In this document: in pieces, positions 34,111-51,860 of the stretch | Numbering within the stretch: position 1 is the first letter of the stretch | How the letters are laid out: each line of letters starts with the position of its first letter | NCBI RefSeq assembly: GCF_028745735.1 | Contig: NZ_JAQZSM010000025.1 | Coordinates: forward strand, 1-52,291 | DNA from: Roseinatronobacter alkalisoli | GTDB lineage: Bacteria > Pseudomonadota > Alphaproteobacteria > Rhodobacterales > Rhodobacteraceae | Reading direction: 5' to 3' | Length of the DNA stretch: 52,291 nucleotides | Program-made: the position numbers and the translations under genes | Notes under the pieces: generated by a model | What the model was told of the DNA's origin: nothing | What the model saw: only the letters and a program-made list of their open reading frames with translations | Databases searched by the model: none

Positions 34111-34129
34111 TTATGTTGCAATGACATAA
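34111..34129. promoter_or_regulatory. Palindromic operator candidate for the beta-oxidation operon
   Basis: TTATGT (34111-34116) and ACATAA (34124-34129) form a perfect 6-bp inverted repeat with a 7-base spacer, about 90 bases upstream of the acyl-CoA dehydrogenase start. The minus strand has TTGCAA overlapping it, a possible -35. The binding regulator is not encoded next to it. Confidence 0.4.
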
Positions 34130-34155
34130 CCGGGGGTTAGTCTTGAGGGGCGGGT

Positions 34156-35358: not shown

Positions 35359-35509
35359 GCTCATGTCCTCCGTCTTGGGCCTTATGTCTAGCGGGTTTCG
35401 GCAAAGGGCGACAACGGACAAGGGATTCGCATTGCCAAAGAAATTATCAGGTCAGCCGACAATAAAACTGTGGGATACAAGCATAAGTCTGGCTGAACAG
35501 GAAAAACCG

Positions 35510-36094
35510 ATGGAAGACAGCAATAGTCAAAATCCGGACTGGCCCGCGCCGCGCCTGTCCGCGCCCGACCCGCAAACCTACACCCCGCGCCAGCGCGAAA
35601 TTCACGACAGCATCGCCTCTGGTCCGCGCGGCGGCGTTCGTGGCCCGCTTGCAATCTGGCTGCACCGCCCGGAACTGGCGGCGCGTGCGCAGGAACTTGG
35701 ACGATACTGCCGGTATGATACATCACTTGATCCACGCCTGAGCGAACTGGCCATCCTGACCATGGCCCGCCATTGGGGTGCCGAATATGAATGGGCTGCA
35801 CATAAGAAAGAAGCCTTGAAAGCCGGTCTGTCTGCCGATGTGATCGAGGCAATCCGCACCGGAACGCCGCCAACCTATGCAGATACCGACGAGAAGATCG
35901 TGCATGCGGTTGCACGATCCGTGCTGGAAACACGCCATGTCCCCGATGCACTTTATGCACAGGCCAGCAGGATACTTGGCACCGAAAGGCTGGTCGATCT
36001 GATCGGCGTGTTGGGATATTACACGCTTATATCAATGACGCTGAATGTATTTCGCATTCCGCCACATAACAACGAACCTGCCGAGCTGTCCTGA
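35510..36094 (+). CDS. Carboxymuconolactone decarboxylase family (CMD/AhpD-like) protein
   Basis: A 194-residue CMD-family protein. The core helices are LDPRLSELAILTMARHWGAEYEWAAHKKEALKAGLS (about residues 75-110; shown here only as landmarks: LSELAIL, EYEWAAH, EALKAGLS). The AhpD redox motif CxxC is absent; the His after EYEW is kept. A lactone decarboxylase or uncharacterised role is possible. ATG 35510 is chosen because the region upstream belongs to the divergent thiolase promoter. The gene is divergent from thiolase and ends 14 bp before the convergent sugar ABC ATPase gene. Confidence 0.8.
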   Translation: MEDSNSQNPDWPAPRLSAPDPQTYTPRQREIHDSIASGPRGGVRGPLAIWLHRPELAARAQELGRYCRYDTSLDPRLSELAILTMARHWGAEYEWAAHKKEALKAGLSADVIEAIRTGTPPTYADTDEKIVHAVARSVLETRHVPDALYAQASRILGTERLVDLIGVLGYYTLISMTLNVFRIPPHNNEPAELS

Positions 36095-36108
36095 CAGCGG
36101 CGCGGCCA

Positions 36109-37194: not shown

Positions 37195-37198
37195 CGCG

Positions 37199-38116
37199 TT
37201 ATCCTTTCACAGCGCCAGCGGCGATGCCGCGAACAAACAGTTTGCCAGAGATGAGATAGATGGAGAGGGGAACAATGCCGGACAGAAGTGTCGCCGCCAT
37301 GTTCACATTGTATTCCTTAACACCCGTGACCGAATTGACGATATTGTTCAGCTGGACCGTCATCGGGTAATTCTCCGGGCGGGTGTAGATGGCCCCGAAC
37401 AGGAAATCATTCCAGATAGCGGTGGTCTGCAGAATGACGGCAACAACAAAGATCGGCAGGGCCATTGGCAACATGATCTTGAAATAGATGGTCCGGAACC
37501 CGGCGCCATCGACACGCGCCGCCTTGAACAACTCTTCCGGGACCGATGAAAAATAGTTGCGGAAAAGCAGTGTCAGGATCGGCATGCCAAAGACAGTATG
37601 CACAAGCACAAGGCCAGAAAGCTCGCCATAAAGGCCGATTTCGCGCAACAGAACCACAATGGGATAGATCATCACCTGATAGGGAATGAAGGCCCCGATG
37701 ATCAGGATGGTGAACAGGACATTGGCCCCCTTGAAGCGCCACATCGACAGCGCATAGCCATTGACCGAGGCCACCGCGATAGAGAAAAAGACCGACGGAA
37801 CCGTGATCTTGAGCGAGTTCAGGAAACCACGCGACAAGCCATCGCAGTTCAGGCCAGTACATACGCTTGACCATGCCTTGACCCACGGAGCGAATGTAAT
37901 CTCCACAGGTGGGGCGAAGATGTTGCCAACCCGGATTTCGGGCATGCCCTTCAGCGATGTCACGACCATCACATAGATCGGCAGCAGATAGTAAAGGGCC
38001 AGCACGATCAGCACACCATAGATGATGATGTTGCGGCGTGAAAATATCGGTCGGGGCCTGGGGCCTGCCGCATGGGCATGGCTGGCATGCTGTGTTCTGA
38101 TGACAGTATCAGCCAT
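37199..38116 (-). CDS. Sugar ABC importer permease, MalG type (GtsC-like)
   Basis: A 305-residue CUT1 permease with about six membrane segments and the EAA loop EELFKAARVDGAGF. An extracytoplasmic segment with two cysteines (SSVCTGLNCDGLSRGF) resembles the one in GtsC-type glucose permeases. Start 38116 is set by GGAGG eight bases upstream; it overlaps the preceding permease by 8 bp. It pairs with the MalF-type permease encoded just before. Confidence 0.9.
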   Translation of the reverse strand: MADTVIRTQHASHAHAAGPRPRPIFSRRNIIIYGVLIVLALYYLLPIYVMVVTSLKGMPEIRVGNIFAPPVEITFAPWVKAWSSVCTGLNCDGLSRGFLNSLKITVPSVFFSIAVASVNGYALSMWRFKGANVLFTILIIGAFIPYQVMIYPIVVLLREIGLYGELSGLVLVHTVFGMPILTLLFRNYFSSVPEELFKAARVDGAGFRTIYFKIMLPMALPIFVVAVILQTTAIWNDFLFGAIYTRPENYPMTVQLNNIVNSVTGVKEYNVNMAATLLSGIVPLSIYLISGKLFVRGIAAGAVKG

Positions 38117-39002
38117 TTTTCTTGCCTCCGAATTCAAGATACGCCCATGGAATGATGATGAAGGTCACAGCAACAAGCATCATCGTTGAAGCAGCAAACC
38201 CCTGGGCCAGGTTTTGCGAAACGAACATGGCATCGAAGACAAATTTTGCAGGCACTTCAGATGCCAGACCCGGACCGCCACCGGTCTGCGCGATGATCAG
38301 GTCATAAAGTTTGATAATGCCCGACGTGACCAGAACCAGCGTGGTCACGAAAACCGGGCGCATCATCGGGATGACAACGAAAATATAGGTTTTCCAGGTT
38401 GGAATGCCGTCAACCTTGGTCGCTTTCCAGACATCTTCATCTATGCCGCGCAGCCCTGCCAGCATCAGGCACATGACCAGACCACTGCCATGCCACAATC
38501 CCGCGACCAGCACGCCATAAAGAACCAGATTGGGATTATAGAGCGGGTCAAAGGTGAAATTCCCGAACCCCAGACTGCGCACGACATTCTGAATGCCGAA
38601 TTCGGGGTTCAGTACCCATTGCCACACCAGCCCGGTTACAATGAAGCTAAGCGCATAGGGATACAGAAAAATGGTCCTGAACCCGTCCTCGAACCGGATC
38701 TTCTGGTCAATCAAGGCCGCCAGAAGAAACCCCAGCACCAGCGACAGGATCAGCATAAGGCTGCCATAGATCAACAGGTTCTCAATCGAGATAAGCCAGC
38801 GCCGCGTCCCCCACAGACGTTCATATTGCGCAAGACCAACCCAGTCGGCGCGGGGCAGCAAGCGCGAGTTGGTGAAGGAAAAAACGATCGTCCAGACAGT
38901 GCAACCGACAAAAACGACCAGCGCTGTCAGTACCATGGGAATGGCCGCGATCTTCGCGCTAAGATTCTTGAATAGCCCTGACGGTTTGCCGTTTTGCGAC
39001 AT
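38109..39002 (-). CDS. Sugar ABC importer permease, MalF type (GtsB-like)
   Basis: A 297-residue CUT1 permease with about six membrane segments and the EAA-type loop DEDVWKATKVDGIPT. I take the start at 39002 (MSQNGKPSG), which has a purine-rich GGGG upstream; a longer frame to 39053 would add a segment that looks non-coding. The 3' end overlaps the second permease by 8 bp. The 72-bp gap after the binding-protein gene is usual in such operons. Confidence 0.85.
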   Translation of the reverse strand: MSQNGKPSGLFKNLSAKIAAIPMVLTALVVFVGCTVWTIVFSFTNSRLLPRADWVGLAQYERLWGTRRWLISIENLLIYGSLMLILSLVLGFLLAALIDQKIRFEDGFRTIFLYPYALSFIVTGLVWQWVLNPEFGIQNVVRSLGFGNFTFDPLYNPNLVLYGVLVAGLWHGSGLVMCLMLAGLRGIDEDVWKATKVDGIPTWKTYIFVVIPMMRPVFVTTLVLVTSGIIKLYDLIIAQTGGGPGLASEVPAKFVFDAMFVSQNLAQGFAASTMMLVAVTFIIIPWAYLEFGGKKNG

Positions 39003-39074
39003 CTGAAAACCCCAATCTGCAAGAAGGTGAAGCGAATGGCGCGGACCGGACAAGAAGGTCCACGCCAGACGTGA

Positions 39075-40307
39075 TCAGTCGGCGGATGCAATGATGTCGA
39101 CGAATTCTGCTTGTGCCTGTTCCACTGAAAATCTTGTGTCGGCAAAAAACTCTACCACCAGATCCGTCACGCGCCCCAAAGTGTCCGGCGACACCATTGT
39201 ATTGACGCTTTCGACGACATTTCCTTGCGAGAGGATCTCCATGCCACGCTGCATGCAGGGCGTCGGATCGACCAGTTCGATATCAAGACGCACTGGCAAG
39301 GCACCCTTCGCCTTTGTGAAGGCCAACTGCGTTTCCGGTGCCACAATGGTTCCGACAAGAATATCCTGCGCAGCGATGACGTCGGGATCTGTCACCTTGG
39401 GGAAATAGAAAGCATCCCCTGCTGCCGTGATGTATTGATGCACCCCTAGGCCGGGCAGGCATGTCAGGTCTTCGCCCGGCGTCATGCCCGCTTGCATGAA
39501 TTCGCCCTGCACCCAATCCCCCATGATCTGGCCAGCGGCGCGTCCGTCCGCAACAAGCTGCGCCGCAAGGTTCCATTCCTGAATATTGGACCCCCGCATC
39601 ATGTCACGCGCTTCCCCGGCGGCCACAAACACCGCTGACATTTCCGGCCCTGCCGCAAATTCCGGTTCACGCTCGCGGTAAATGCGCTCAAACAGATCCG
39701 GGCCACCGATGGACACCATCAGCACATTGAACAACAATTGCTGTTGCCAGGCCTGCTGGCCCTGTGCCAGCGGGATGATACCGTTTTCGCGCAGGACGGG
39801 TGCAGCGGCCACGAACGCATCCCAGTTCTGCGGAACATCCAGCCCGTTATCGATGAAAACAGAGTTGTTCAGCCACAGCCATTGCTGCGAATGGATGTTC
39901 GACGGCACGCAGAAAATTTTGCCCTCGAACGTGCAGCTGTCAAGTAGCGACTGCGGGAATATGGCATCTTTCCAGCCCTGCGTTTGCGCCAACTCCGTCA
40001 CATCGCGCATGAAGCCCGACTCGATCAGCTCGCGCATTGCCGAACTATGCGTGAACTGGGTGGCCCCCATCGGGTCACCGCCTGTGATCCGGCTTGTGAT
40101 CAGTGGCCGTGCAATTCCGCCTGCACCCGCAATGGCGCCATCGACCCAGGTATGGCCGGATTCCGCAAATGCTTCTGCAATAACGCGGATCGCATCCGCT
40201 TCGGACCCAGATGTCCACCAGTGCGTAACTTCAAGATTTGTCGCATGTGCTGGCAGCCAGGCCGTGCTGGCCAGCAGACAGAATGTAAGAGGCTTCAGCG
40301 ATGTCAT
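39075..40307 (-). CDS. Sugar ABC importer binding protein (GtsA-like)
   Basis: A 410-residue periplasmic solute-binding protein of extracellular family 1. The signal peptide ends near AHA-TNL (about residue 22), and the mature protein begins LEVTHWWTSGSEADAI, typical of glucose/mannose-type GtsA binding proteins. Four or more cysteines are spread through the mature part. It heads the sugar ABC operon. GGAG lies upstream of the ATG. The ligand is probably a hexose or small glycoside; the GH3 enzyme nearby could supply it. Confidence 0.9.
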   Translation of the reverse strand: MTSLKPLTFCLLASTAWLPAHATNLEVTHWWTSGSEADAIRVIAEAFAESGHTWVDGAIAGAGGIARPLITSRITGGDPMGATQFTHSSAMRELIESGFMRDVTELAQTQGWKDAIFPQSLLDSCTFEGKIFCVPSNIHSQQWLWLNNSVFIDNGLDVPQNWDAFVAAAPVLRENGIIPLAQGQQAWQQQLLFNVLMVSIGGPDLFERIYREREPEFAAGPEMSAVFVAAGEARDMMRGSNIQEWNLAAQLVADGRAAGQIMGDWVQGEFMQAGMTPGEDLTCLPGLGVHQYITAAGDAFYFPKVTDPDVIAAQDILVGTIVAPETQLAFTKAKGALPVRLDIELVDPTPCMQRGMEILSQGNVVESVNTMVSPDTLGRVTDLVVEFFADTRFSVEQAQAEFVDIIASAD

Positions 40308-40535
40308 GGTGTTCTCCCGGTTGTAAGGTTTGATCAGTCAGTCATGGGTAGGGGCATTGTTTTTATTGGTACTGGTGCAGGGTTTTTCCGACCGGACCGT
40401 TACTGTGTCATCGTCCAGAATCCCTTGTTTCAGTCAACGCATCTGACATTTGGCGTGCTAAAACATTTTGTATAAGATGCTGTTTTTATAGGATTTTAAT
40501 GCGTACCCAATGCATCTTTATCGCTGCATTTCGCC
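40308..40535. other. Upstream region of the sugar operon
   Basis: A 228-bp gap between the CoA-transferase stop and the sugar operon start, both on the minus strand. AT-rich blocks around 40460-40500 should hold the operon promoter; TTGACT on the minus strand near 40431-40436 is the best -35, with no clear -10. No gene is recognised. Confidence 0.35.
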
Positions 40536-41729
40536 TTAGCCCGCTATGATTTTGGCCGCGCGTAAGGCCTTGATATCGTCAGGGCCATAGCCAAGCTCGT
40601 ACAGAATCTGATCCGTCTGCGCGCCTGTGGGCTGGGGTGGCCGCACAAGCGCAGGACCGTCGTGCCGCATACCGAAACCAGCAAGTGTGGTGTTCATTCC
40701 TGCAACAGTGCCTTCTGGTCCGTTGAACCGGTGCAGCACAGGGCGGGCGGCAACCTGCGGATCGTTCAATGCTTCGTCCATAGTGCGTATCCGCGCGCAC
40801 GGAATTCCATGCGATTGCAGGAAATCTTCCCAATACCGGGCCGGTTTCAACCTGAAACTTTCGCGCAGCGCTTCCGCTTCCTGCGCATGTGCATCAAGCC
40901 GCTGGTTGTTGTCTGTCTTGATCTGGTCCTCGCGGCCCAGCAACGTCCAGAGCTTGCGCTGCTGCCTGAGGTTTGACGCCGACACCATCATGGGCGCGTC
41001 ACTCGCCCAGTACATGCCGATCGTCGCGAAAGGATAGGTGTTGCCCTTGGCTACCGGAACTTTGCCACCCCAGAAATACGAAGCGACATGCGATGTCGCG
41101 AACATGAGTGCGACATCAAGCATGGACACGTCGATGTAATTCCCCATGCCGCCCGTGCGCTCGCGCTGAAGAAGTGCTGCGGCAATGGCATAGGCCGCGG
41201 TTGTCCCTGTCGCATAATCCATGACCGGTGCCCCACATTTGAAGGGCGTTTCAGGGTCATCGCCGGTCATCGCCATAAAGCCGGAAAAGGCCTGGATGAT
41301 ATTGTCATAGCCGCGCAGTTCCCGGCGCGGTCCTGTCGCGCCGAATGCCGAAACTGAACAATAGATGATCCTGGGGTTACGCTTCGCCACTTCGTCATAG
41401 CCCAGCCCAAGTGCGTCGAACGCGCCGGTGCGGTAATTCTCGATGAAGACATCGGCAGTTTCGATCAGCCGCAGCATCGCCTCGCGGCCTTCCTGTGTTT
41501 TCAGGTCAATCGCGATACAGGATTTGTCAGACCCTTGCGCCAGAAACGCGGTGCCCATACCGGCATCGTTCATCGCGCCGTCAGGCCCTTGGCCACGGGC
41601 CTGATCAGGGTCATGCGGATCTTCAACCTTGATGACATCCGCGCCAAGTGTTGCCAGTTGAAACGCTGCAAACGGGCCAGCCAGAACATGCGTCGTGTCA
41701 ATCACCCGGAAATTCTGAAACGCCTTCAT
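40536..41729 (-). CDS. Class III CoA-transferase (CaiB/BaiF family)
   Basis: A 397-residue family III CoA-transferase. The nucleophilic Asp is about Asp171 in APVMDYATG; the N-terminal segment HVLAGPFAAFQLATLGADVIKVE and YDNIIQAFSGFMAMTG are family signatures. It moves CoA between carboxylic acids. ATG 41729 has GGAG nine bases upstream; the longer frame extends into the promoter region. It lies alone between the sugar operon and the divergent GH3 gene. A role with the carboxylate modules is plausible but not shown. Confidence 0.9.
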   Translation of the reverse strand: MKAFQNFRVIDTTHVLAGPFAAFQLATLGADVIKVEDPHDPDQARGQGPDGAMNDAGMGTAFLAQGSDKSCIAIDLKTQEGREAMLRLIETADVFIENYRTGAFDALGLGYDEVAKRNPRIIYCSVSAFGATGPRRELRGYDNIIQAFSGFMAMTGDDPETPFKCGAPVMDYATGTTAAYAIAAALLQRERTGGMGNYIDVSMLDVALMFATSHVASYFWGGKVPVAKGNTYPFATIGMYWASDAPMMVSASNLRQQRKLWTLLGREDQIKTDNNQRLDAHAQEAEALRESFRLKPARYWEDFLQSHGIPCARIRTMDEALNDPQVAARPVLHRFNGPEGTVAGMNTTLAGFGMRHDGPALVRPPQPTGAQTDQILYELGYGPDDIKALRAAKIIAG

Positions 41730-41950
41730 GATGGATTTCTCCGTTCGGTTCCGGTCGGTTGTGGCCCGCTTTGCGCGATGCAAGCCGCCATTGCCGGAAT
41801 TGAAATTCTGCTGGTGGCGACAATCACCGCGCAGACGCGCCAGCGCCACTGCCGAAAGGTTTGGTCGGACCTGACGAATGCGCACCCCCTTTTGTGCGGC
41901 GGTCGCATATGCTGGGCAAAAAGTACAACTTACCCAGAACAGGTGCTTCA

Positions 41951-43645
41951 ATGACCAATGCCGCCCTCCCCCTGACCGACGCCCAGCTTTGCGCGGCGCC
42001 GTTTCATCTGGATGCAGGCGGATTGGACTGGGTCAGAACACGCTTTGCCGCGCTTGATACAGACGCGAAGATTGCGCAGCTTGTTCTGCCCATGTGCCGT
42101 GATCTCTCTGATGCCGGAATCGAGGCAGTTGCCCGTTTCCGCACCGGCGGCGTTCATCGTTTCCCAAGCTATAGCGAAGCCGAATTGCGCCGCTCTGCGA
42201 TGTTGCTGATGCAGCAAAGCGCTATTCCGCCGCTGCTGACCGCCGATATCGAGATGTCGGAGAAGGCCAGTATCAAAGCTGGAACCGCATTTCCCAACCA
42301 AATGGCCGTCGCAGCGACAGGTGACAGGCAAAACGCCCACCACATGGGTGCTATCGCTGCGCGCGAGGCGGGCTATCTGGGCTTTGGTGTAAGCTGGACA
42401 CCAGTTGCGGATCTGGCATTGAATTTCCGGTCCAACGTCGTGAACACGCGGGCGTTTTCAGACAATGTGGACAACACTATCGGCATGGTTTCCGCCTATC
42501 TTGACGGGATGCACAGCAATGGACTTGTCGCGTGTATCAAGCATTTTCCCGGCGATGGTCTGGATGAACGGGACCAGCATTATGTCACCACACATAACAC
42601 AATGGACATGGACGAATGGCGCGCAAGTTTCGGGCGCATCTATGCCGAAGCTATCCGAAAGGATGTGCGCCTTGTCATGGTCGGACATGTGACCCTTGCT
42701 GCCTACGGGCGCAATCTGGGTGGCGCGGCGCGAAGCGGGGCGCATCTTCCCGCCTCGCTTAATGGTGACATTCTGCATGGGCTTCTGCGCGGGGACCTGA
42801 ACTATAACGGCGTTATCGTGTCGGATGCGACCGGCATGGCAGGCTTTACATCCTGCGGGGCGCGCAAGGACATTGTGCCCATGTGCATTGAAAACGGCTG
42901 TGACATTCTGCTGTTTCCGCGCGATATAGAGGAAGATATCGGCTTCCTTTGGGCCGGGCTGGAATCCGGCGCCCTGTCGCAGTCCCGGCTGGATGCAGCA
43001 GTGCTGCGGATTCTGGCGCTGAAAGCGTCCATGGGGCTGCATCTGGGCCACCCAGTTCTGCCCGATGAAAAACAGCGCGCCAGTTTGCTTGGCAGTGAAC
43101 AACACCGCAACTGGGCAAGGGATGTCGCCGAAGGGTGCGTGACACTGGTGCGGGACACCCAGAACCTGTTGCCCATTTTGCCCGCCCGTCACCGGCGCAT
43201 TCTGCTGGCGGAATTGCGCGACCGGCGCAGCCCGTCTGCGGCCCTGCCCGATCTGGAAATTCCCGCAATGCTTGAAGCACTGGGCTTTATCATCACGCGC
43301 GTTGTCCCGGGAGAGGTGATTGCCCCGGATGATCACGATATTGGTCTATATCTGATGGCCGAAGAAGGACTGTCCGGAAAAGAGGTTCTTGGCCCCCGAT
43401 GGGAACAGCTTCATGGCCCTTTTCCGCTGACCATGCAACGGATGTGGCAGCATCTGCCAACACTGTATGTGTCCCTCGGTTCGCCGTTCCTGACGTTTCA
43501 TGTGCCCGATTGCCCGACATTCGTGAACGCCTACAGCGCGGTGATGCCAGTGCAACAGGCCGTGGTCGATGCGCTTACCGGCAAGATCGCGTTCAAGGGC
43601 CGCAGCCCGGTTGACACAAATTGCGGTCTGCCCGTCTTTCACTGA
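41951..43645 (+). CDS. Glycoside hydrolase family 3 enzyme
   Basis: A 564-residue GH3 protein. KHFPGDG (residues 197-203) is the substrate loop, and the Asp-Gln-His at 208-210 matches the Asp/His acid-base dyad of NagZ-type beta-N-acetylhexosaminidases. The probable nucleophile is Asp292 (VIVSDATGM). A C-terminal domain of about 180 residues follows, lacking the fibronectin III part of large GH3 glucosidases. No signal peptide is visible, so it is cytoplasmic and probably acts on an imported glycoside, which fits the neighbouring sugar ABC importer. The ribosome binding site is weak. Specificity for hexosaminides rather than glucosides is inferred only from the dyad. Confidence 0.87.
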   Translation: MTNAALPLTDAQLCAAPFHLDAGGLDWVRTRFAALDTDAKIAQLVLPMCRDLSDAGIEAVARFRTGGVHRFPSYSEAELRRSAMLLMQQSAIPPLLTADIEMSEKASIKAGTAFPNQMAVAATGDRQNAHHMGAIAAREAGYLGFGVSWTPVADLALNFRSNVVNTRAFSDNVDNTIGMVSAYLDGMHSNGLVACIKHFPGDGLDERDQHYVTTHNTMDMDEWRASFGRIYAEAIRKDVRLVMVGHVTLAAYGRNLGGAARSGAHLPASLNGDILHGLLRGDLNYNGVIVSDATGMAGFTSCGARKDIVPMCIENGCDILLFPRDIEEDIGFLWAGLESGALSQSRLDAAVLRILALKASMGLHLGHPVLPDEKQRASLLGSEQHRNWARDVAEGCVTLVRDTQNLLPILPARHRRILLAELRDRRSPSAALPDLEIPAMLEALGFIITRVVPGEVIAPDDHDIGLYLMAEEGLSGKEVLGPRWEQLHGPFPLTMQRMWQHLPTLYVSLGSPFLTFHVPDCPTFVNAYSAVMPVQQAVVDALTGKIAFKGRSPVDTNCGLPVFH

Positions 43646-43678: not shown

Positions 43679-44485
43679 TTAGCGCGCGCCGCGACGGGTA
43701 AACCCGGCGGCAATAAGCGCCCCGTCCTGCCGCGCCATGAACCAGCGCTTTCCCTGCCCGAACATCTGCACGGTGTCGCCCTGATCCAGATTGCCCAGAT
43801 AGACAACATCTCGCTGAAGCAGCGGCGCAGGTTGTGATGGCCGGGCATGCTCGGCGGTTTCAGCAAGACGCGAGAATGTCGGGAAATACAACAAACCCAC
43901 TGCGTTGAAATCCAGCGAAGGTATCGGCCGCTCTGCATAGACCGGGGTGCTGTCAGCCGGGTGAACAAGGCGCATCTTGCGCGACATCGCGCGGGCCTGA
44001 CAATCAAGCCGCGCGAGTGCCGCATCCGCAGCCGGAAGATGCATCTGCCCCAACACAGAATTGCGGACAATGCGCTTGTTCGACCCGCTATTGTCATGAC
44101 TGACGAATGTAGAAATCATCCGGAGTTCGGCCAGTATCCCGCCCTGCGAGGTGATCATGTGGCAAGAGCCTGTGCGCGTGTCTGATACGGCGTGCAGGGC
44201 AGATGCGATCCTGACCTCCTGCCCGAGCAATGCCCGCCCCGCCGGATGGAATTTCAGCGATGTCGTGCAGAACGCCGCATAGACGGGCCGCCCGTCCGCA
44301 GCCCTGAAGATTACATCATTCTGGCCGAGGGCAGTCGCCACCATGCGCCAGTGTTCATCGCCGCAATAGCGCAGCAGCCATTGTTCGGACAAGCCCGCCG
44401 GTGCCAGCTGCGCCATGCCCAGCATCAGGTTGTTCACCTGAAATACCGGCCCCGAGCAGCAAGCAATTGCCACAGACGTCATCAC
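43679..44485 (-). CDS. LnmK-like / Pnap_2097-type double-hotdog protein
   Basis: A 268-residue protein with the opening LMLGMAQLAPAGLSEQWLLRYCGDEHWRMV (landmarks: GLSEQWLL and CGDEHW), which I recognise from the LnmK / Pnap_2097 group of double-hotdog proteins. LnmK is a bifunctional acyltransferase/decarboxylase that turns methylmalonyl-CoA into propionyl-carrier protein in leinamycin synthesis. The second half (PSLDFNAVGLLYFPTF) forms the second hotdog. It overlaps the flavoprotein gene by 4 bp and ends the nitrilase operon, so it is very probably co-translated. No carrier protein or ketosynthase is nearby. The catalytic role here is unproven. Confidence 0.72.
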   Translation of the reverse strand: MMTSVAIACCSGPVFQVNNLMLGMAQLAPAGLSEQWLLRYCGDEHWRMVATALGQNDVIFRAADGRPVYAAFCTTSLKFHPAGRALLGQEVRIASALHAVSDTRTGSCHMITSQGGILAELRMISTFVSHDNSGSNKRIVRNSVLGQMHLPAADAALARLDCQARAMSRKMRLVHPADSTPVYAERPIPSLDFNAVGLLYFPTFSRLAETAEHARPSQPAPLLQRDVVYLGNLDQGDTVQMFGQGKRWFMARQDGALIAAGFTRRGAR

Positions 44486-45762
44486 GCCACGGACCTTGTT
44501 CCGACCATGACCAATTGGCGTTCGATCTGCTCTGCCAGATACGCGCTGTCTTCTTCAATGGCCAGAAAACGACCCGACCCCCAGGTATTCAGCCATCCCA
44601 GACCGATAAAATGAACGCCGTGAACATCCGTCACCCCGCGGTGGAATTCTGGCTTTCCGCGCCCGTCAAACACATCGACTTCGATCCAGCTGTAATCCGG
44701 GCGAAAGCCGATCGCCCAAATCACCGATGCGATATTGGCGTCTTTCGTGTCCAGTTCGGTGCGCTCTGTTTCAGGCTCCCATACCTTTGCGAATGGGGCC
44801 TCTTCCGGCGCGTCAATGCCTTCGCGCGCAATATAGGCATCAATCTGATTGCAGATACCGACATAGCTTGCATCCGCATCATCCAGATTCTTTTTCAGAT
44901 CGGGCAGGAATTTCAGTTTGCTGCCGTCCATATCCGCCAGCGAACCATATAGTTCCACGCCATGATCGACATGCCATTTGCGCAGGTCGATTTCCTTGCC
45001 GCCGTCGCGCCCGGACATGTAGTGATTGGTCTGGGTCATGGCTTTGTGCGGGTCGGGGTGGCGGTCGATGGTGATATCATAATGGCCGGCATCATACAGC
45101 CAATCGGTCGCATCGCGCCCCCGGTATTTGCGCGGGCTGCGCGGGGCGGGTCCAACAGCCAGATGCACCTTGCGACCAGCGCGGACGAAATCTTCCATGA
45201 TCTGCACGCCGGACTGGCCGGTTCCGACAATCAGGATATCCCCATCCGGCAGCTGAGCGGGCGACCGGTAATCGACCGAATGCATCTGCGTTATCGCCGG
45301 ATCCAGTTTGCTGGCATAGGGTGGCTCAATCGGCGTGTCATAACCGCCGGTCGCGATGACCACCTGATCGCAGGTCCATGTGCCCGCCGTAGTCTCGACG
45401 ATAAAACCGCCATCATCATGCGGTGCCACGCGGGTCACACGGGTATGTTCGCGGATGTCCGGTTCGAAACTACGCGCAAACGCATCCAGATATTCCGTGA
45501 TCTCCGCGCGCAGCATGAAACCGTGCGGGTCAGTGCCGCCATATTCCTTGTCATAATGGAAACCGGGCAGGCGGCATTGCCAGTTCGGCGTCACAAGGCA
45601 GAAGCTGTCCCAGCGGTTCACCCGCCAGGAATGGAATTTCTCATGCCTTTCGAAAATTACTGATCTGATGCCCTTTTTGTGCAACTGCTTGGCGACAGAC
45701 AAGCCGGCCTGTCCTCCGCCAATAATCGCGACGGGAACATCGAAGATATCTGCAGCGTTCAT
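44482..45762 (-). CDS. MSMEG_0569-family flavin-dependent oxidoreductase
   Basis: A 426-residue flavoprotein monooxygenase-like enzyme. The FAD-binding motif is IIGGGQAGLS (residues 13-22), the central NAD(P) motif is IVGTGQSG, and VIATGGYDTP follows. It resembles the MSMEG_0569 family, a standard member of the Nit1 nitrilase cluster, and more broadly the FMO/BVMO-like oxidases. AAGGAG eight bases before ATG 45762 fixes the start. It overlaps the LnmK-like gene and follows the MSMEG_0570 gene by 11 bp. The substrate is unknown. Confidence 0.85.
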   Translation of the reverse strand: MNAADIFDVPVAIIGGGQAGLSVAKQLHKKGIRSVIFERHEKFHSWRVNRWDSFCLVTPNWQCRLPGFHYDKEYGGTDPHGFMLRAEITEYLDAFARSFEPDIREHTRVTRVAPHDDGGFIVETTAGTWTCDQVVIATGGYDTPIEPPYASKLDPAITQMHSVDYRSPAQLPDGDILIVGTGQSGVQIMEDFVRAGRKVHLAVGPAPRSPRKYRGRDATDWLYDAGHYDITIDRHPDPHKAMTQTNHYMSGRDGGKEIDLRKWHVDHGVELYGSLADMDGSKLKFLPDLKKNLDDADASYVGICNQIDAYIAREGIDAPEEAPFAKVWEPETERTELDTKDANIASVIWAIGFRPDYSWIEVDVFDGRGKPEFHRGVTDVHGVHFIGLGWLNTWGSGRFLAIEEDSAYLAEQIERQLVMVGTRSVA

Positions 45763-45773
45763 AGCGCTCTCCT

Positions 45774-46061
45774 TTATGTTGAAATCGCAAGGCACAGGAT
45801 CCTGGCGTCCTTTTGTCCTGCGAAGGTGGCGGCGCGGCGTTCCAGGCGGTCAAGCTGATCCATGGCCAACGAACAAGCGAACCCATATTTCTGCTCCACC
45901 CGGGCGGAGGCTTGTTCAAGCGCCCTGCGCGCAGATTGCATGAACGCTGGCAACGGGTAGCTCTGTCCTGCGCTGAAGGTTTCGGCAATGACGCTGGACG
46001 GGGAATAGCAGCGTTCTTCATGCCCGTCAGGCCAGCGGATTGTCCAATAGGTTTCAGGCAT
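45774..46061 (-). CDS. MSMEG_0570-family small protein of the Nit1 cluster
   Basis: A 95-residue protein beginning METYW-like (MPETYWTIRWPDG), with SPSSVI and LPAFMQSAR as landmarks. It matches the MSMEG_0570 'nitrogen starvation response' family, known only from nitrilase clusters. The start at 46061 overlaps the AIR-synthase-like gene by 8 bp; a longer frame to 46100 lies inside that gene. Small size and no catalytic motif suggest a binding or regulatory subunit. No biochemical role is known to me. Confidence 0.8.
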   Translation of the reverse strand: MPETYWTIRWPDGHEERCYSPSSVIAETFSAGQSYPLPAFMQSARRALEQASARVEQKYGFACSLAMDQLDRLERRAATFAGQKDARILCLAIST

Positions 46062-47031
46062 TTGCGGTTTCCTTTCCCGAAAACGACAGATAAGGCGCAC
46101 TGGCGTAATCCCAGAAAAGCGCGGTGTCTTGCCCCTGTATCAGGTCCACGCGGCTGCCCTCGGACACGGCCCCGATGCGGCTTGCCCAGATGCCGCGTGC
46201 GCGAAACGCATTGCAGACCTTTCCGGCATTTTCCCGGCTGACAGACAGCAGAAAGCCAAAACTGGGAAAGCTGCGCATCCAGCGTTCAAGGCCAACCCCG
46301 TCGGGCGGTGTGATCTGGTCCAGATCCAACGCAATCGCGACATTCGAACATTCCGCAAGCATCAGCGCCGTGCCCGCAATGCCACCCTGACTGATATCCT
46401 TGCCAGCATTCAACAGACCTGCTTCGGCCAATTCCGGCAACAGCGCAAGATCACCGCGCAGGCGTGCATGCGGCGCATCCAGCGCGGCACAGTAATTGTC
46501 GAAATTCACATAGTGACCGCGGTGGTCAATCGCCGCAAGCAGCACATCACCGGGGCGCGCGTCAAAGCTGGTCACCGGGACGGTTGCCTTGCCCAGCACC
46601 GATACCGCAAGGTTCAGTTCACTGGCCGCAAAATTCGTATGCCCGCCCACCAGCGGCACGCCATAGGCCGCCGCCGCATCGCGCAAACCCGTCATCAAGG
46701 GCAACGCGCTGGCCTCATCCGGGGCCCATACCATGTCGATCAGCGCACGCGCCCGCCCGCCCATGGCCGCAATGTCGGACAGATTCACCATCACACCACA
46801 CCACCCTGCAAACCATGGGTCCGCCTGCACGAAAGCGGGAATGAACCCTTCGCCCGCCAGCAGATCAACGCCATCGGCTGTGGCAATCATGGCGGCGTCG
46901 TCACCGGGCCTGCCCGCAGACCCCGCTGTCAGCCCGAGCATGCCCGCCGCGCGTGCAATGCCCAGCTTCGACCGGATCGCGGGGTGCGCGCGCAACCGCG
47001 GCGCAAGGGTGTAGGGACCGGGGCCGGTCAT
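46054..47031 (-). CDS. Sll0787-family AIR synthase-like protein
   Basis: A 325-residue PurM/AIR-synthase-like ATPase. PurM landmarks are GRPGDDAAMI (about residues 40-49), the metal/nucleotide segment VNLSDIAAMGG, and the C-terminal ISQGGIAGTALML. The family is a constant member of the Nit1 cluster. PurM-type enzymes activate an amide, acid or thio group as a phosphate ester, so this one may activate the product of the nitrilase or radical SAM step. It overlaps the GNAT gene by ATGA (47028-47031) and the MSMEG_0570 gene by 8 bp. Confidence 0.85.
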   Translation of the reverse strand: MTGPGPYTLAPRLRAHPAIRSKLGIARAAGMLGLTAGSAGRPGDDAAMIATADGVDLLAGEGFIPAFVQADPWFAGWCGVMVNLSDIAAMGGRARALIDMVWAPDEASALPLMTGLRDAAAAYGVPLVGGHTNFAASELNLAVSVLGKATVPVTSFDARPGDVLLAAIDHRGHYVNFDNYCAALDAPHARLRGDLALLPELAEAGLLNAGKDISQGGIAGTALMLAECSNVAIALDLDQITPPDGVGLERWMRSFPSFGFLLSVSRENAGKVCNAFRARGIWASRIGAVSEGSRVDLIQGQDTALFWDYASAPYLSFSGKETANA

Positions 47032-47570
47032 CTGCGTTTTCCCGGTTTCAGGAACCACCCCAGTTCCGGGTCTGCACAAGGCGGATAAAACGCCAGATCA
47101 GCGCGCATCTGCGCATGGACAACACCGTGAAGAACCACTTCACCCACGACTGACCAGTGAAGCCTGCGAAATAATGGCACATTCTGCTTTTGCACATGCG
47201 CGAGGAAAGTGTCGCAACCACGGGTGTTGGCCGAGCAGACCGCAAGCCTGATCAGTTCGGCCCCCAACCGCCCCACCTGACGAAAATCGCGGTCCACCGC
47301 CAGCCGCGACCCCCACCACAGGCCCGGTTGCGGTTCATGAATGCGGACGGTCCCGACCACATCATCGGCCTCATGCGCATAGGTTGACAGCGCAACAAGA
47401 TGGGTCGCGACATGGTCCACCTCGTCGCGGTCATGTTGCGGAAATATTTTCTGCTCCTCGACAAAGACTTTGTGGCGCAAGGCTTGCGCACCATGCAATT
47501 CAAACGGTCTGGAAGCCACGCGGATGTAGAATCCCGGGCACTGGAAATGTTGCGGTTCCAGTTCAATCAT
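47028..47570 (-). CDS. MSMEG_0567/Sll0786-family GNAT acetyltransferase
   Basis: A 180-residue GNAT-fold protein. ALRHKVFVEEQKIF (about residues 29-42) is the characteristic start of this subgroup and resembles autoinducer-synthase-like GNATs; the acetyl-CoA region is RLAVDRDFRQVGRLGAELI. It overlaps the radical SAM gene (ATGA, 47567-47570) and the AIR-synthase-like gene. It presumably N-acylates an intermediate of the cluster's pathway; substrate unknown. Confidence 0.83.
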   Translation of the reverse strand: MIELEPQHFQCPGFYIRVASRPFELHGAQALRHKVFVEEQKIFPQHDRDEVDHVATHLVALSTYAHEADDVVGTVRIHEPQPGLWWGSRLAVDRDFRQVGRLGAELIRLAVCSANTRGCDTFLAHVQKQNVPLFRRLHWSVVGEVVLHGVVHAQMRADLAFYPPCADPELGWFLKPGKRR

Positions 47571-48670
47571 GCCGGCACCTTCAGGGATTCATATTTCGAC
47601 AGCGCCGAGCAGGCACCGCATTTTCCGCATCCCGCCTTAATGTCTTCAGACCGCATTCCTGCACGCACGATCATCTGTCCAAGCGGACGCAGGACAGATG
47701 CCATGAATTCAGGTCTGGGCGCAGGGTGACTTTCCAGCGGTGTGCCGGAAATAGGCACAAACGGCACGACAAACGGGTAAACCCCCATGTCACACAGCTT
47801 TTGCCCCATTTCCAGGATCGCCTCGCGCGTGTCCCCAAGCCCGGCCAGGATGTAGGTTGACACCTGACCGCGCCCGAAAACCTTCACTGCGGCCTCAAAG
47901 CTCGACATGTATTTCTCAACCGGAACCGTGGCCTTGCCCGGCATGATGCGCGCGCGCACCTCCTGCGTCACGGCCTCCAGGTGCATGCCAAGCGCATCAA
48001 TGCCCGCATCAAACATGCGCTGATGCCAGATATCATCGGCGGGCGGTTCGCATTGGCCCTGAATGGGCAGATCAACCGCTGCCTTGATCGCGCGCGCGCT
48101 GTCAACCATGACCGCAGCACCCCGGTCCTTGCCCGGCGGTGTTCCGGTCGTCATGACCATATGCTTCACGCCATCCAGTTCGACCGCTGCCTTCGCAACC
48201 TCAGCCAGTTGTTCAGGGGTTTTGTGCGCAATGGTGCGCCCTGCGGCCAGACTCTGGCCGATGGCGCAGAACTGACAGGTCTTCTTGCGGCTTTCATAGC
48301 GGATGCAGGTCTGCAGAACTGTTGTCGCCAGAACATCGCGTGAATGCAGGGTCGCTATATGGCTGTATGGTATGCCGTCGGCGGTTTTCAGGTCATAGAA
48401 CCGTGGCCGCGTGGGAAAATGCAGCCGTGCCACCTCTTTCCCGTCGCGTGTCAGGCGCGCGTGGCCGCTGGCGTCTGGTGCCTCGACCAGAAACGGCGAC
48501 TGAAAGGCGGGCGCGGTATGCACAGGCACCATGACGGTCTTTGACCCAAGCGTGACGGCCTTGTGGTCAGACGGGCCCGCCCCGCCGCGGCGCGCTTCGT
48601 GCCCCGCGCCGGGATCGGCCAGCCGCATCCCGTAGGATTGCAGATCGTTGATCAGGTCAGCGTCAGACAT
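47567..48670 (-). CDS. MSMEG_0568-family radical SAM protein
   Basis: A 367-residue radical SAM-fold protein of the MSMEG_0568 family. The cluster cysteines are Cys122, Cys132 and Cys135 ([15 protein letters not shown]), a CX9CX2C spacing instead of the canonical CX3CX2C. Three more cysteines, Cys348, Cys351 and Cys354 (CGKCGAC), close to the C-terminus could bind a second cluster. [10 protein letters not shown] follows the GGE-like position. It overlaps the nitrilase gene by 8 bp and the GNAT gene by 4 bp. It is expected to cleave SAM to make a radical on an unknown substrate; the odd spacing makes the exact chemistry uncertain. Confidence 0.82.
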
Positions 48671-49652
48671 TGGGTGTCTCCTCTTCCATCACATTCGCGA
48701 AGGGTTCCGGGTTCGGGGCTGGCGGCATGACAACGCGCGCTTCTGCGGGGCGGGTGTCATGCACCAGATGCAGCAATTCTGGGCGCGCATAATGGCCAAC
48801 GCTGTCCATCATGCGCTTGCGCTTGGTGATCAGCCGCATATCCAGATCGGCAATCAGAATCCCCTCGCCCGATGTGATCGGGTCGGCCAGATGCCGGCCT
48901 TCGGGCGATATGATGCAGGTCATGCAGCCGTCGCGCATGGCTGACTGCAACCTGGGATCGGGGTGCAGCGACTGAATCTGGTCTTCGGTCAACCAGCCGG
49001 TCGCATTGACCACGAAACACCCCGCTTCCAGCGCATGGTGGCGCATCGTCACTTCGATCTGTTCCCCGAAGATCGGGCCGACCAGCGAACCGGGAAAATG
49101 CGCGGCGTGAATTTCCTCGTGCTGGCACATCAGGGCGTAGCGCGCCAAAGGGTTATAATGCTCCCAGCAGGCAAGTGCGCCGACGCGGCCGACTCTGGTT
49201 TCCACAACCTTCAGCCCGGCCCCATCGCCTTGCCCCCAGACCATGCGCTCATGATACGTGGGCGTGATCTTTCGCCGCTTGAGCGCCAGCGTGCCATCCG
49301 CATCGAAAATCAGTTGGGTATTGAAAAGCGATCCATTGTCACGTTCGTTCACGCCCAGAACAACCACGACGCCATGCCTGCGGGCCATATCCGCCACTGC
49401 ACGAGTTTCATTGGACGGCACAACAACGGCCTGTTCATAAAGTTCCAGATGCGCAGGGCCTTGTTGCACCGGCGGCAGAACGAAGGAAAAATATGGATAG
49501 TAAGGCACGAATGTTTCTGGAAAGACGATAAATTCCGCGCCCTTCCCCGCCGCCTCTGCAATGGCATTCAGAACCCGCTCAATGGTTCCGGCACGCCCCG
49601 TAAGATCAGGGGCAATCTGCACAGCGGCGGCACGGATTGTATCGGTTCGCAT
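48663..49652 (-). CDS. Nitrilase of the Nit6803 / Nit1-cluster type
   Basis: A 329-residue nitrilase-superfamily enzyme. The catalytic triad is Glu46 (VFPETF), Lys128 ([15 protein letters not shown]) and Cys162 (ACWEHYNPL), as in true nitrilases. Start 49652 is set by the family N-terminus [17 protein letters not shown]; the ribosome binding site is weak. The gene follows the MSMEG_0572-family gene by 71 bp. It would convert a nitrile to an acid plus ammonia. Nit1 clusters have been linked to cyanide or nitrile use in other bacteria; which nitrile is used here is unknown. Confidence 0.9.
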
Positions 49653-49723
49653 GATATCACTCTGTCGATAGGAAAATGCCGGTATCGGGCCGGACCAGAT
49701 ACATAGGGTCCGGCCCGAAGGCT

Positions 49724-50206
49724 TCAGACTGTCCAGGTGTCCAGAATGAAGGCGTTGTCCTTGCGGTGCAGCAGGATACAATCCAGCACATCCTGCGGGG
49801 CTATCGGCACGATACCGGGCAGCAACGCTGGCTCGCCGTGACCATACAGCGCTTGCAGGCCGAACCGGCAGCAATAGATCGTTCCACCCTCTGCCATGAA
49901 TTTCTTCAGGTTTGCGGCGAAATTCTGGTGCCCCGGGAACGCCTCGTCGCCCAGCGTCGGAAAGCCGCGCTGAATACCCAATGTGACACCCGGCCCGTAA
50001 AGCAGGATCGACGTTTCGAAACCTTTGCGCTGCAACCGGATTGCCTGCAAAATGTTGACAAGCCCGATAGACCCTTCGAACGCAACTGTATGGAAGGTCA
50101 CAAGAGCTTTCTCGCCAGGATCGGCCTTGACGTCTTCAAAGACCTTTTCCTCGTAATCGACGAAAAAATCGCCATCCTTGTGCTTTTCCTTGGTAACTGC
50201 AGGCAT
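49724..50206 (-). CDS. MSMEG_0572/Sll0783-family protein, first gene of the Nit1 cluster
   Basis: A 160-residue protein resembling the MSMEG_0572/Sll0783 'nitrogen starvation response' family, with DsrE-like fold features ([42 protein letters not shown] as landmarks). ATG 50206 is preferred over 50221 because AAGGAG lies seven bases upstream of it. It is the first gene of the operon, divergent from the MocR-type regulator across 283 bp. The paired cysteines (IYCCRFG) could be functional. Its activity is unknown. Confidence 0.85.
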
Positions 50207-50489
50207 CAAGTTCTCCTTCATCGCTGTCTGACTGTTGATGCCCCAACATGCGCCCAAAGAATTTTTGCCCGCAATAATGCAGTCAATAAGATATCAATTA
50301 TCCATACAATTTACCAAGAAGATGCTGAATAGTTGCGCATACTGCATGGTTTTCGTTCAGGTTCAGAACGGGAATCCGGCGCTCCCATGCACCGAAGCTG
50401 ATCTTTGCAGCGATTCGCGGCCTGCATCCATACAATCCGCTTCAATCCCGCCCGAAGTTCCATTACCCTGCGCCCAAACGGAGAGATCG
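50207..50489. promoter_or_regulatory. Divergent MocR / nitrilase-cluster control region with direct repeats
   Basis: Two exact copies of ATCCATACAAT lie at 50300-50310 and 50426-50436, 126 bp apart, in the spacer between the divergent operon and regulator. MocR/GntR regulators are known to bind pairs of direct repeats, so these are good operator candidates. The spacing is longer than in the well-studied GabR case. Confidence 0.5.
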
Positions 50490-51860
50490 ATGATTGACTG
50501 GACGCCAGATTTGGAAACCGAAGGCAGACCGCGCTACATGGCAATCGCGGATGCCATCGAAAAAGATATCGGACGCGGGATCCTTGCAGCCGGTGTGCGC
50601 CTGCCGCCACAGCGCAGCCTGGCAGACCGCCTTGGAATTGATTTCACCACAGTTTCGCGCGGCTATTCCGAGGCACAATCCCGCGGACTTGTCGAAAGCC
50701 ATGTGGGGCGCGGCACCTTTGTTGCAAAACAGGCGAATTCCGGCAACGAGCCAGACCCGCAACGCATGGCGGAAGAAGATCTTTCCATGAATCTTCCGCC
50801 AGAACCCACCGACGCAGCACTTGTCGCCAGAATGCAGAACGGCCTGAATTATGTATCCGCCAATCTGTTGCAGCTGCTCAGATACCAGTCGCCGACCGGA
50901 TCAGACCGCGACAAGATGGCAGCGTCAACATGGCTTAGTCTGCGCGGCATGATGCCCAACAATGCGCGGGTGGTCATTACACCCGGGGCGCACAGTACGA
51001 TCTGCGCCATTCTTGCAATACTGACCAACCCCGGCGACACGGTTCTATGTGAACAGATTACATATCCGGGGTTTCGCAACATTGCCGCCCGTTGCGGCCT
51101 GAATGTGATCGGCGTCAGGATGGATGATCATGGCATCCTGCCCGAGGCGCTGAATGACGCCATTGCAACCCACCGGCCGAAAGCCGTGTATCTGAACCCG
51201 ACACTGCAAAACCCGACGACAATAACAATACCAAACGACCGCAGGCTTGTTATTTCGGAAGTGCTGAACAAGCACGGCGTGCAACTGATCGAGGATGACG
51301 CTTACGGCTTTGTTCCGGCCCGCGCACCAGCACCGATCGCGGTTTCTGCGCCGGATCTGACCTGGCATATCGGGGGGCTGGCAAAATGCATCGGCGCAGG
51401 CTTGCGACTGGCCTATACTGTCGCGCCCAACGCAAAAGAAGCACACGCCCTGGGACAGATCATCAAGACACAAGCAGTCATGGCGTCCCCGATCATGGCC
51501 GCCCTTGCAACGCGCTGGATAGAGGACGGAACCGCCGACCAGATACGGCGCTTTATCCGTTCTGAAACCGCCGCCCGGCAGGCCATAGCGCGCGATGTTC
51601 TGGACGGATGCACCTTCCGGTCAGAAGAAAACGCATTCAATGTATGGCTGTCACTGCCAGAAGGTGTCGGACGTGCAGATATCGTGGCACGCATGGCCGG
51701 TCGCCCCATAGGCCTGCTGTCATCCGATGCGTTTACTGTCGGCACGCCACCGGGCGAACATGTGCGGCTCTGCCTTGGCGGATCACTCTCGCGCGACGCG
51801 CTGCGTTCTCATCTGTATTTCCTTGTGAACAGCATCCAGCACAATTCCTACATGGGGTGA
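50490..51860 (+). CDS. MocR-type regulator (GntR helix-turn-helix fused to aminotransferase fold)
   Basis: A 456-residue MocR-family protein. The N-terminal GntR winged helix spans about residues 14-80 (GVRLPPQRSLADRLGIDFTTVSRGY). The remainder is a fold-type I aminotransferase domain with the PLP lysine Lys299 in HIGGLAKCIGAGLR and Asp269 near LIEDDAYGF; the NPTLQNPT loop is present. ATG 50490 has GGAG seven bases upstream; longer frames begin in the control region. It is divergent from the nitrilase cluster and probably senses an amino compound tied to that pathway through PLP. Confidence 0.9.
   Translation: MIDWTPDLETEGRPRYMAIADAIEKDIGRGILAAGVRLPPQRSLADRLGIDFTTVSRGYSEAQSRGLVESHVGRGTFVAKQANSGNEPDPQRMAEEDLSMNLPPEPTDAALVARMQNGLNYVSANLLQLLRYQSPTGSDRDKMAASTWLSLRGMMPNNARVVITPGAHSTICAILAILTNPGDTVLCEQITYPGFRNIAARCGLNVIGVRMDDHGILPEALNDAIATHRPKAVYLNPTLQNPTTITIPNDRRLVISEVLNKHGVQLIEDDAYGFVPARAPAPIAVSAPDLTWHIGGLAKCIGAGLRLAYTVAPNAKEAHALGQIIKTQAVMASPIMAALATRWIEDGTADQIRRFIRSETAARQAIARDVLDGCTFRSEENAFNVWLSLPEGVGRADIVARMAGRPIGLLSSDAFTVGTPPGEHVRLCLGGSLSRDALRSHLYFLVNSIQHNSYMG

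Follow-up and report, generated by a model that had tools for sequence, protein, structure and literature searches.

A Nit1C operon with an LnmK-like eighth gene

The window analyzed here is a 52,291-nucleotide stretch of Roseinatronobacter alkalisoli DNA (contig NZ_JAQZSM010000025.1), and the system in question is an eight-gene operon on its minus strand, flanked by a divergent gene for a MocR-type regulator (Table 1). A preliminary description of the locus, made from the sequence alone, had listed eight minus-strand genes and a divergent MocR gene and had taken the first seven for the known Nit1 set. All of these genes are present, and the eight operon proteins score above their NCBIfam cut-offs. 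The seven core genes lie in a single cluster and make up a complete Nit1C operon; the eighth encodes an LnmK-like protein. The starts of the DsrE-like, AIR-synthase-like, and MSMEG_0570 genes were moved to an in-frame ATG, matching the gene lengths annotated in a relative. With these three starts corrected, five of the seven junctions are overlaps of 4 to 8 bp, in agreement with the earlier statement that most of the genes overlap by this much: nitrilase/radical SAM (8 bp), radical SAM/GNAT (4 bp), GNAT/AIR-synthase-like (4 bp), AIR-synthase-like/MSMEG_0570 (8 bp), and flavoprotein/LnmK-like (4 bp from a GTG start, or 1 bp if counted from the next codon, ATG). The other two are gaps, of 71 bp between the DsrE-like and nitrilase genes and of 11 bp between the MSMEG_0570 and flavoprotein genes. 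The operon is of a known kind, and its eighth gene is a real, recurrent variant.

Table 1. Genes and putative regulatory repeats of the operon, in window coordinates
Feature	Position	Strand	Evidence
MSMEG_0572/Sll0783 family (DsrE-like) gene, first of the operon	49724..50206	-	TIGR04044 281.8 bits, cut-off 109.85
Nit6803 family nitrilase gene	48663..49652	-	TIGR04048 549.8 bits, cut-off 502.6
MSMEG_0568 family radical SAM gene	47567..48670	-	TIGR04043 606.8 bits, cut-off 303.7
GNAT gene (MSMEG_0567/Sll0786 family), proposed acyl recipient	47028..47570	-	TIGR04045 212 bits, cut-off 68.45; FeeM; GNAT fold
AIR-synthase-like gene (sll0787 family)	46054..47031	-	TIGR04049 395.8 bits, cut-off 321.3
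MSMEG_0570 family gene	45774..46061	-	TIGR04042 118.3 bits, cut-off 79.85
MSMEG_0569 family flavin-dependent oxidoreductase (flavoprotein) gene	44482..45762	-	TIGR04046 589.6 bits, cut-off 498.35
LnmK-like gene (Pnap_2097 family), proposed acyl-donor enzyme	43679..44485	-	TIGR04099 206.1 bits, cut-off 125; LnmK fold; Tyr69 and Asn194
MocR-type regulator gene, divergent (GntR DNA-binding and aminotransferase domains, Lys299)	50490..51860	+	PF00392, PF00155
Repeat ATTGTATGGAT, putative MocR operator half, operon side	50300..50310	-	
Repeat ATTGTATGGAT, putative MocR operator half, mocR side, 126 bp from the first	50426..50436	-	

The LnmK-like gene recurs in the operon but is not always present

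A contig scan led by the LnmK-like gene confirmed 112 relatives, of which only the best 80 were kept, so this set is biased to close relatives. All seven Nit1 genes lie just upstream on the same strand in 74 of the 80 loci; in some methylobacteria about 1.5 kb separates the flavoprotein and LnmK-like genes. Four of the six exceptions (L087, L140, L145, and L151) are cut by contig ends. Of the two that differ, L089 is a solitary copy whose genome has a full operon as well (L107), and L152 retains MocR, a DsrE-like fragment, and an LnmK fragment, the middle of the operon being gone. Another locus, L212, retains the same parts, so that both L152 and L212 correspond to internal deletions that spared the two ends.

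Among the 394 genomes of the window's GTDB family, 18 LnmK-like matches were found, 15 of them over the cut-off. The gene lies about 5 kb from a Nit6803 nitrilase gene on the same strand in 13 of these 15, which upholds the earlier assignment of the gene to the operon; in the remaining two genomes, the LnmK-like and nitrilase genes are on different contigs (G688) or there is no Nit1 nitrilase (G710). None of the three sub-cut-off matches is accompanied by a Nit6803 nitrilase over the cut-off, and G540 holds a decayed operon. Four further samples, all small and mostly proteobacterial, were drawn more widely. The LnmK-like gene was over the cut-off in 3 of 289 genomes of the class, 2 of them with the gene in a Nit1 operon. 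In an order sample (292 genomes), the nitrilase was over the cut-off in 11, with the LnmK-like gene behind the operon in 6, and a second order sample (297 genomes) yielded the GNAT gene in 29, with the LnmK-like gene behind the operon in 17 and elsewhere in the genome in 1 more. The phylum sample (398 genomes, seven shared with the second order sample) had the radical SAM gene in 16 and the LnmK-like gene in 4 of those, counting the window and one genome (G990) with a 1.4-kb spacing. A whole-genome search of 20 genomes with LnmK-less operons found the LnmK family in one.

The preliminary description had proposed a search for the eight-gene order in other genomes. By script, all eight genes were complete in 92 of 99 loci taken as LnmK-bearing, on one strand in all 92 and in the window's exact order in 84, so the arrangement is not due to chance. 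Some of the eight order variants are artifacts of over-long open reading frame (ORF) starts in the script; G051 is a genuine rearrangement in which the LnmK-like gene is still last. A core tree was built from the radical SAM, nitrilase, and flavoprotein sequences of 90 of the 110 clusters, clusters with at least 93% core identity being dropped. On this tree, the presence of the LnmK-like gene requires 10 changes (9 imposed by well-supported branches), a count that none of 500 label shuffles matched; the gene is thus a clustered trait that has been repeatedly gained or lost. Its distances track those of the nitrilase and radical SAM proteins (r = 0.84 in 70 loci, 2 of 72 LnmK-bearing rows without MocR having been dropped; the maximum of 500 permutations was 0.20). 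The ratio of nonsynonymous to synonymous substitution rates (dN/dS) is 0.11 to 0.37 in all 15 pairs compared, above that of the nitrilase but below 1, with synonymous divergence exceeding 1 in some pairs. These data mark the gene as an optional element of the operon that recurs across genomes, and its operon membership is close to certain.

Many copies of the gene are plasmid borne. In Tabrizicola piscis (L081), the eight genes span about 6.5 kb on a circular plasmid of 29.4 kb. In Methylocystis iwaonis (L078), an MSMEG_0565 glycosyltransferase gene separates the Nit1 genes into two blocks, and cytochrome bd-type oxidase genes lie beside them. A gene for a DUF983 protein adjoins the operon in both of these loci and in Sagittula (L076). 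The neighbors of two stand-alone LnmK-like genes (L208 and L209) had no Pfam match at 1e-5 and indicated no partner. RefSeq labels the eighth protein "Pnap_2097 family" beside the operon; none of the papers found in a literature search contains this name, and in the portions of the literature available we found no prior description of an eighth gene in Nit1C.

The eighth protein resembles LnmK in profile, predicted fold, and invariant residues

In addition to its own family model (Table 1), the protein exceeds the cut-off of TIGR04098 LnmK_bifunc (181.6 bits; cut-off, 100), and its match to the Pfam LnmK N-terminal domain is sub-threshold (17.1 bits; cut-off, 26.5). A profile of 22 relatives retrieved four sequences from the PDB at E < 0.01, all of them LnmK (best, 3e-18). 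The AlphaFold2 model (predicted local distance difference test [pLDDT] score, 92.6) has a double hot dog fold, as the preliminary description had labeled it. A Foldseek search with this model returned LnmK entries as its seven top matches (4HZN and others; E = 4.2e-15, template modeling [TM] score of 0.72, 17 to 18% identity), followed by acyl-acyl carrier protein (ACP) thioesterases. Tyr69 aligns with position 62 of chain 6X7L, counted along the profile alignment, and is invariant in 107 of 107 sequences. Asn194, in a GLLYF loop, is invariant in 106 of 106, one further row being cut there by a contig end. We take Tyr62 to be the catalytic tyrosine of LnmK. A loop asparagine is the key decarboxylation residue of MadB and also of LnmK, according to the accessible part of the MadB report (PMC8666670). 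Work on a carrier protein is hinted at by L046 of genome G688, in which a stand-alone LnmK-like domain forms one protein with a hexapeptide-repeat region (43.5 bits) and with a stretch resembling a PP-binding domain (19.0 bits; gathering threshold, 20.8).

The genes that occupy the last slot point to acyl supply

On a plasmid of Burkholderia anthina, a methylmalonyl-coenzyme A (CoA) mutase gene directly follows the LnmK-like gene with a 4-bp overlap; its product scores 990.4 bits against an equivalog model with a cut-off of 876. The available text on LnmK (PMC9396626) and PDB molecule names give methylmalonyl-CoA as the LnmK substrate. When 72,556 plasmid records were searched with the B. anthina LnmK-like protein (E up to 1e-40), 14 records were found, comprising 12 from Burkholderiales and 2 from Methylocystis, and the mutase (E up to 1e-200) occurred in exactly those 12 Burkholderiales records. 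In all 12, it lies directly downstream of the LnmK-like gene on the same strand, with -1 to 86 bp between aligned ends. Because several of the records are close relatives (8 are Paraburkholderia), they represent fewer than 12 independent cases. The genome of the window carries a methylmalonyl-CoA mutase gene elsewhere (1266 bits). The acyl transfer and decarboxylation suggested in the preliminary description fit the mutase neighbor as well as the predicted fold and the invariant residues. From these features, we consider decarboxylase chemistry with methylmalonyl-CoA as the substrate to be probable.

A different gene occupies the same place in some Nit1 clusters that lack the LnmK-like gene. 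Plasmids of Klebsiella oxytoca, Acidisoma, and Acetobacter carry a gene annotated as AMP-binding directly behind the flavoprotein gene; the Klebsiella and Acidisoma products score best, though always below cut-off, against models of propionate- and acetate-CoA ligases. The Klebsiella protein matched 645 plasmid records, 403 of them at at least 80% identity and a few of these partial; in a listing spread over the matches, the gene is annotated as overlapping the flavoprotein gene in 34 of 37 full-length rows at at least 80% identity. No ligase gene was found in the eighth slot of the LnmK-bearing loci examined; ligase-like matches in L144 and L152 lie elsewhere in the locus. The clusters of Acinetobacter and Rhodococcus have neither an LnmK-like nor a ligase-like gene. 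In the ORF lists of the LnmK-less clusters from the phylum and order samples, taken without a domain search, no common replacement gene was evident; L206 was the sole such cluster with an AMP-binding-like ORF near the slot, weakly similar and 400 bp behind the flavoprotein gene. On the best reading of these observations, a short acyl thioester, in this operon probably propionyl, is provided by the slot that follows the flavoprotein gene. An extra enzyme that probably converts methylmalonyl-CoA to a three-carbon acyl donor suggests that the operon yields an acylated compound and does not serve nitrile breakdown alone.

Klebsiella accounts for 373 of the 513 plasmid records that carry the Nit1 radical SAM gene (L265 is an example). 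The operon is common on large Klebsiella plasmids, with the AMP-binding gene in the eighth slot where checked.

The GNAT is a candidate acyl recipient

The operon's GNAT matches the Pfam FeeM family (39.8 bits; gathering threshold, 27), and its matches to ornithine N-acyltransferase models are far below cut-off. Enzymes of the FeeM and ornithine N-acyltransferase types use acyl-ACP. The GNAT model (pLDDT, 91.5) has acyl-homoserine-lactone synthases and FeeM among its first 50 fold matches. With the contributions of the other seven proteins removed, the GNAT is the protein whose distances follow those of the LnmK-like protein most closely (partial r = 0.36, 70 loci); it was the best partner in 283 of 300 subsamples and again in the 58-locus main clade (0.30). 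This covariation is modest, since both proteins evolve fast and other pairs covary more. Among those other pairs in the 70 loci, nitrilase and flavoprotein reach 0.66, MocR and AIR-synthase-like 0.54, and MocR and radical SAM 0.51. Delivery of the thioester to the GNAT may occur, but we hold this part of the scheme tentatively, at somewhat less than even odds. In the Rhodococcus cluster (L269), the GNAT and AIR-synthase-like parts are annotated as a single protein, and two carbon-nitrogen hydrolase genes are present.

Repeats between mocR and the operon suggest local control

The regulator has the two domains expected of MocR proteins (PF00392, 50.6 bits; PF00155, 63.7 bits), and Lys299, conserved in 109 of 109 sequences, is by family resemblance the likely pyridoxal 5'-phosphate (PLP) lysine. 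Its best NCBIfam model is that of the ectoine regulator EhuR, at 406.3 bits and below the cut-off of 480; sensing of an amino acid, as put forward in the preliminary description, would be in keeping with its family. A divergent mocR gene accompanies 90 of 92 clusters with the LnmK-like gene and 17 of the 18 that lack it; in two of the three exceptions, a contig or record end cuts the cluster. A specific tie between MocR and the LnmK-like gene was rejected on the strength of those 17 LnmK-less clusters.

After removal of 3 of 90 rows that had no MocR, ATTGTATG-type repeats were found between mocR and the operon in at least two copies (up to one mismatch, either orientation) in 73 of the 87 remaining loci. 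Twenty shuffles that preserved only base composition gave 2.3 such loci on average and never more than 5. The 4.84-Mb genome of the window has just two copies of the 11-base form ATTGTATGSAT, both of them between mocR and the operon, and no copy of a reversed control pattern. The simplest reading is that MocR putatively controls this one operon only, via the ATTGTATGGAT repeats. According to the accessible part of a study of Pseudomonas pseudoalcaligenes (PMC8567248), the cio cluster of that organism is under the control of a MocR protein, and nitA is the regulator gene of its nit1C cluster.

Genes adjoining the operon

A gene for a GH3-family glycosidase (window positions 41951 to 43645, plus strand) is convergent with the LnmK-like gene, and the five best-scoring loci (L084 to L088) have a related gene close to the operon. 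Beyond it (28742 to 41951) are genes, all on the minus strand, for an acyl-CoA dehydrogenase, an enoyl-CoA hydratase/3-hydroxyacyl-CoA dehydrogenase, a thiolase, a CoA-transferase, and a sugar-type ABC transporter.

Discussion

Our preferred explanation is that the locus is a Nit1C operon with an acyl-donor enzyme in its last slot. The LnmK-like protein would accept a carboxyacyl-CoA, probably methylmalonyl-CoA, and produce a propionyl thioester by decarboxylation, whether or not the acyl group is also passed to a carrier protein. With this thioester, the GNAT would most likely N-acylate an amine made by the other enzymes of the operon. MocR would respond to an amino compound via its PLP lysine and probably controls this operon only, through the two ATTGTATGGAT repeats. 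The explanation builds on computed features, namely, operon membership, the predicted fold, the invariant residues, the recurrent neighbors, and the repeats, at which MocR would bind. We put the probability of the whole at about one-half.

Several observations weigh against this explanation. The preliminary description had asked whether the LnmK-like gene tracks the cluster; it does so in the 74 of 80 loci with full Nit1 sets, but it is not fixed, being absent from the operon in 5 of 11, 12 of 16, and 12 of 29 genomes with Nit1 genes in the three samples, and the seven-gene operons are those linked in print to cyanide use. LnmK-like genes without the nitrilase set, which had been named as a sign of a weak functional link, do exist (G710, G082, G813, and L089), alongside the majority of loci that have the set. 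Four relatives outside Nit1 carry both Tyr69 and Asn194, so these residues support the chemistry of the superfamily and not a Nit1-specific role. The LnmK-like protein evolves fastest of the nine (mean distance of 1.35, versus 0.20 to 0.75). No ACP gene was found among the operon genes or the annotated neighbors of the relatives inspected; the host AcpP could serve as the carrier partner. Outside the Burkholderiales plasmids, no locus examined had a methylmalonyl-CoA mutase neighbor, including two Comamonadaceae loci with the LnmK-like gene (L159 and L163, the latter ending about 3 kb downstream). Every model score of the ligase-like enzymes is sub-cut-off and so points to no particular acid.

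The GNAT adds to these points. Its top fold matches are ordinary acetyltransferases. A scan of 2317 alignment columns in the eight other proteins (72 clusters with the LnmK-like gene, 18 without) ranked GNAT Arg136 first (70/72 versus 3/18) and Arg135 third (56/72 versus 1/18), and among the six best columns, a phylogenetic pair test supported only these two (means of 6.7 and 7.5 of 9 pairs concordant, respectively, and none opposite). The signature failed in 22 new hold-out genomes, with Arg136 in 14 of 14 versus 7 of 8 and Arg135 in 8 of 14 versus 3 of 8 (one of the 8 LnmK-less genomes carries the gene elsewhere), and was withdrawn. Faster evolution of the GNAT in the absence of the LnmK-like gene was not found either (median ratio of 1.58, n = 18, versus 1.66, n = 72; P = 0.60); the AIR-synthase-like protein differed in the opposite way (1.69 versus 2.01; P = 0.004).

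Some of the same evidence bears on other explanations. The LnmK-like protein might instead be an acyl-thioesterase, or a decarboxylase that acts on its own, and serve in editing or detoxification without feeding the GNAT. The rank of acyl-ACP thioesterases directly after LnmK in the Foldseek search, the lack of an ACP gene in the operon, the frequent absence of the gene, and its stand-alone copies would all suit such an enzyme. We nevertheless think it unlikely, given that the sequence profile matches LnmK only, that the tyrosine and the loop asparagine are aligned with those of LnmK and invariant, and that the mutase and ligase neighbors indicate acyl supply. It is less probable still that the operon is purely catabolic, assimilating cyanide or nitriles while the LnmK-like protein and the mutase process the carbon skeleton left by nitrile hydrolysis. 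Radical SAM, GNAT, AIR-synthase-like, flavoprotein, and, in some operons, glycosyltransferase genes exceed what hydrolysis needs; the ligase alternative activates an acid and does not degrade one; and the Mycobacterium smegmatis relative has been linked to nitrogen starvation and peroxide resistance in the part of the report available (PMC6039565). These points are set against the need of Pseudomonas for nit1C during growth on cyanide, as stated in the available text (PMC11049912), and the possibility that a mutase paired with a decarboxylase works in propionate metabolism.

The gene might also be a passenger that rides at the tail of a mobile operon and plays no role in the pathway, but this strikes us as very improbable. 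Its terminal position, its patchy distribution on the core tree (9 to 10 changes), its fast evolution, and its many plasmid copies are what a passenger might show, but its overlap with the flavoprotein gene, its constant place from Rhodobacterales to Burkholderiales and even in the rearranged G051 operon, its dN/dS values in 15 of 15 pairs, and its congruence with the core distances argue against this.

The acyl-donor explanation can be widened, with less confidence, to Nit1C as a whole. In this extension, which is possible but which we rate below even odds by a clear distance, Nit1C would be, beyond its use of cyanide, a modular biosynthetic pathway whose core builds an amine by nitrile/amide chemistry, whose GNAT caps that amine, and whose exchangeable last gene sets the acyl group, yielding a family of N-acylated metabolites; MocR would read the amine or its acylated form. 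The last position would hold a gene for an LnmK-like decarboxylase, joined in Burkholderiales by a dedicated mutase gene, or one for an acetate/propionate-CoA-ligase-like enzyme, or no gene at all. Nit1 genes were detected in alpha-, beta-, and gammaproteobacteria, one actinobacterium, and a Synechococcus control genome, and the literature surveyed, in its accessible portions, names no Nit1 end product. The mutase neighbor and the ligase exchange provide a handle on the acyl chemistry, indicating which labeled precursor to use and which mass shift to expect, so that the question of the Nit1C product becomes testable.

Comparison with known systems

The closest known system is Nit1C itself, described by Podar et al. 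in 2005 (PMC1199592) and as nitABCDEFGH in Pseudomonas (PMC11049912), which has the same seven families in the proteobacterial order with the flavoprotein gene last. The available portions of these two accounts do not mention an LnmK-like gene, and the 2005 paper, to the same extent, reports no conservation beyond the seven genes. The Pseudomonas regulator is the sigma-54-type NitA (PMC11049912), whereas the operon in the window has a MocR gene. The gpr cluster of M. smegmatis (MSMEG_0565 to MSMEG_0572) has the same core families as the window; the part of its description at hand ties it to nitrogen starvation, peroxide resistance, and the NADPH pool, places it under GlnR control, and likewise makes no mention of an LnmK-like gene (PMC6039565).

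LnmK is a methylmalonyl-CoA:ACP acyltransferase/decarboxylase of leinamycin biosynthesis (PDB 4HZN and 6X7L; accessible text of PMC9396626). The eighth protein differs from it in sequence (about 18% identity in the structural alignment) and in context, the operon in the window being without polyketide synthase, ACP, or 3-hydroxy-3-methylglutaryl (HMG) synthase genes, and its activity here is a predicted one; it resembles LnmK in its predicted fold, its aligned tyrosine, its loop asparagine, and the mutase gene adjoining its Burkholderiales relatives. A second likeness, drawn from the available description, is to the malonyl-ACP decarboxylases MadA and MadB (PMC8666670). These have a single hot dog domain, fused to another domain in MadA, whereas the window has two separate genes; in common with the scheme proposed here, a hot dog decarboxylase with a loop asparagine produces a short acyl-ACP, and in MadA, it is joined to a GNAT domain.

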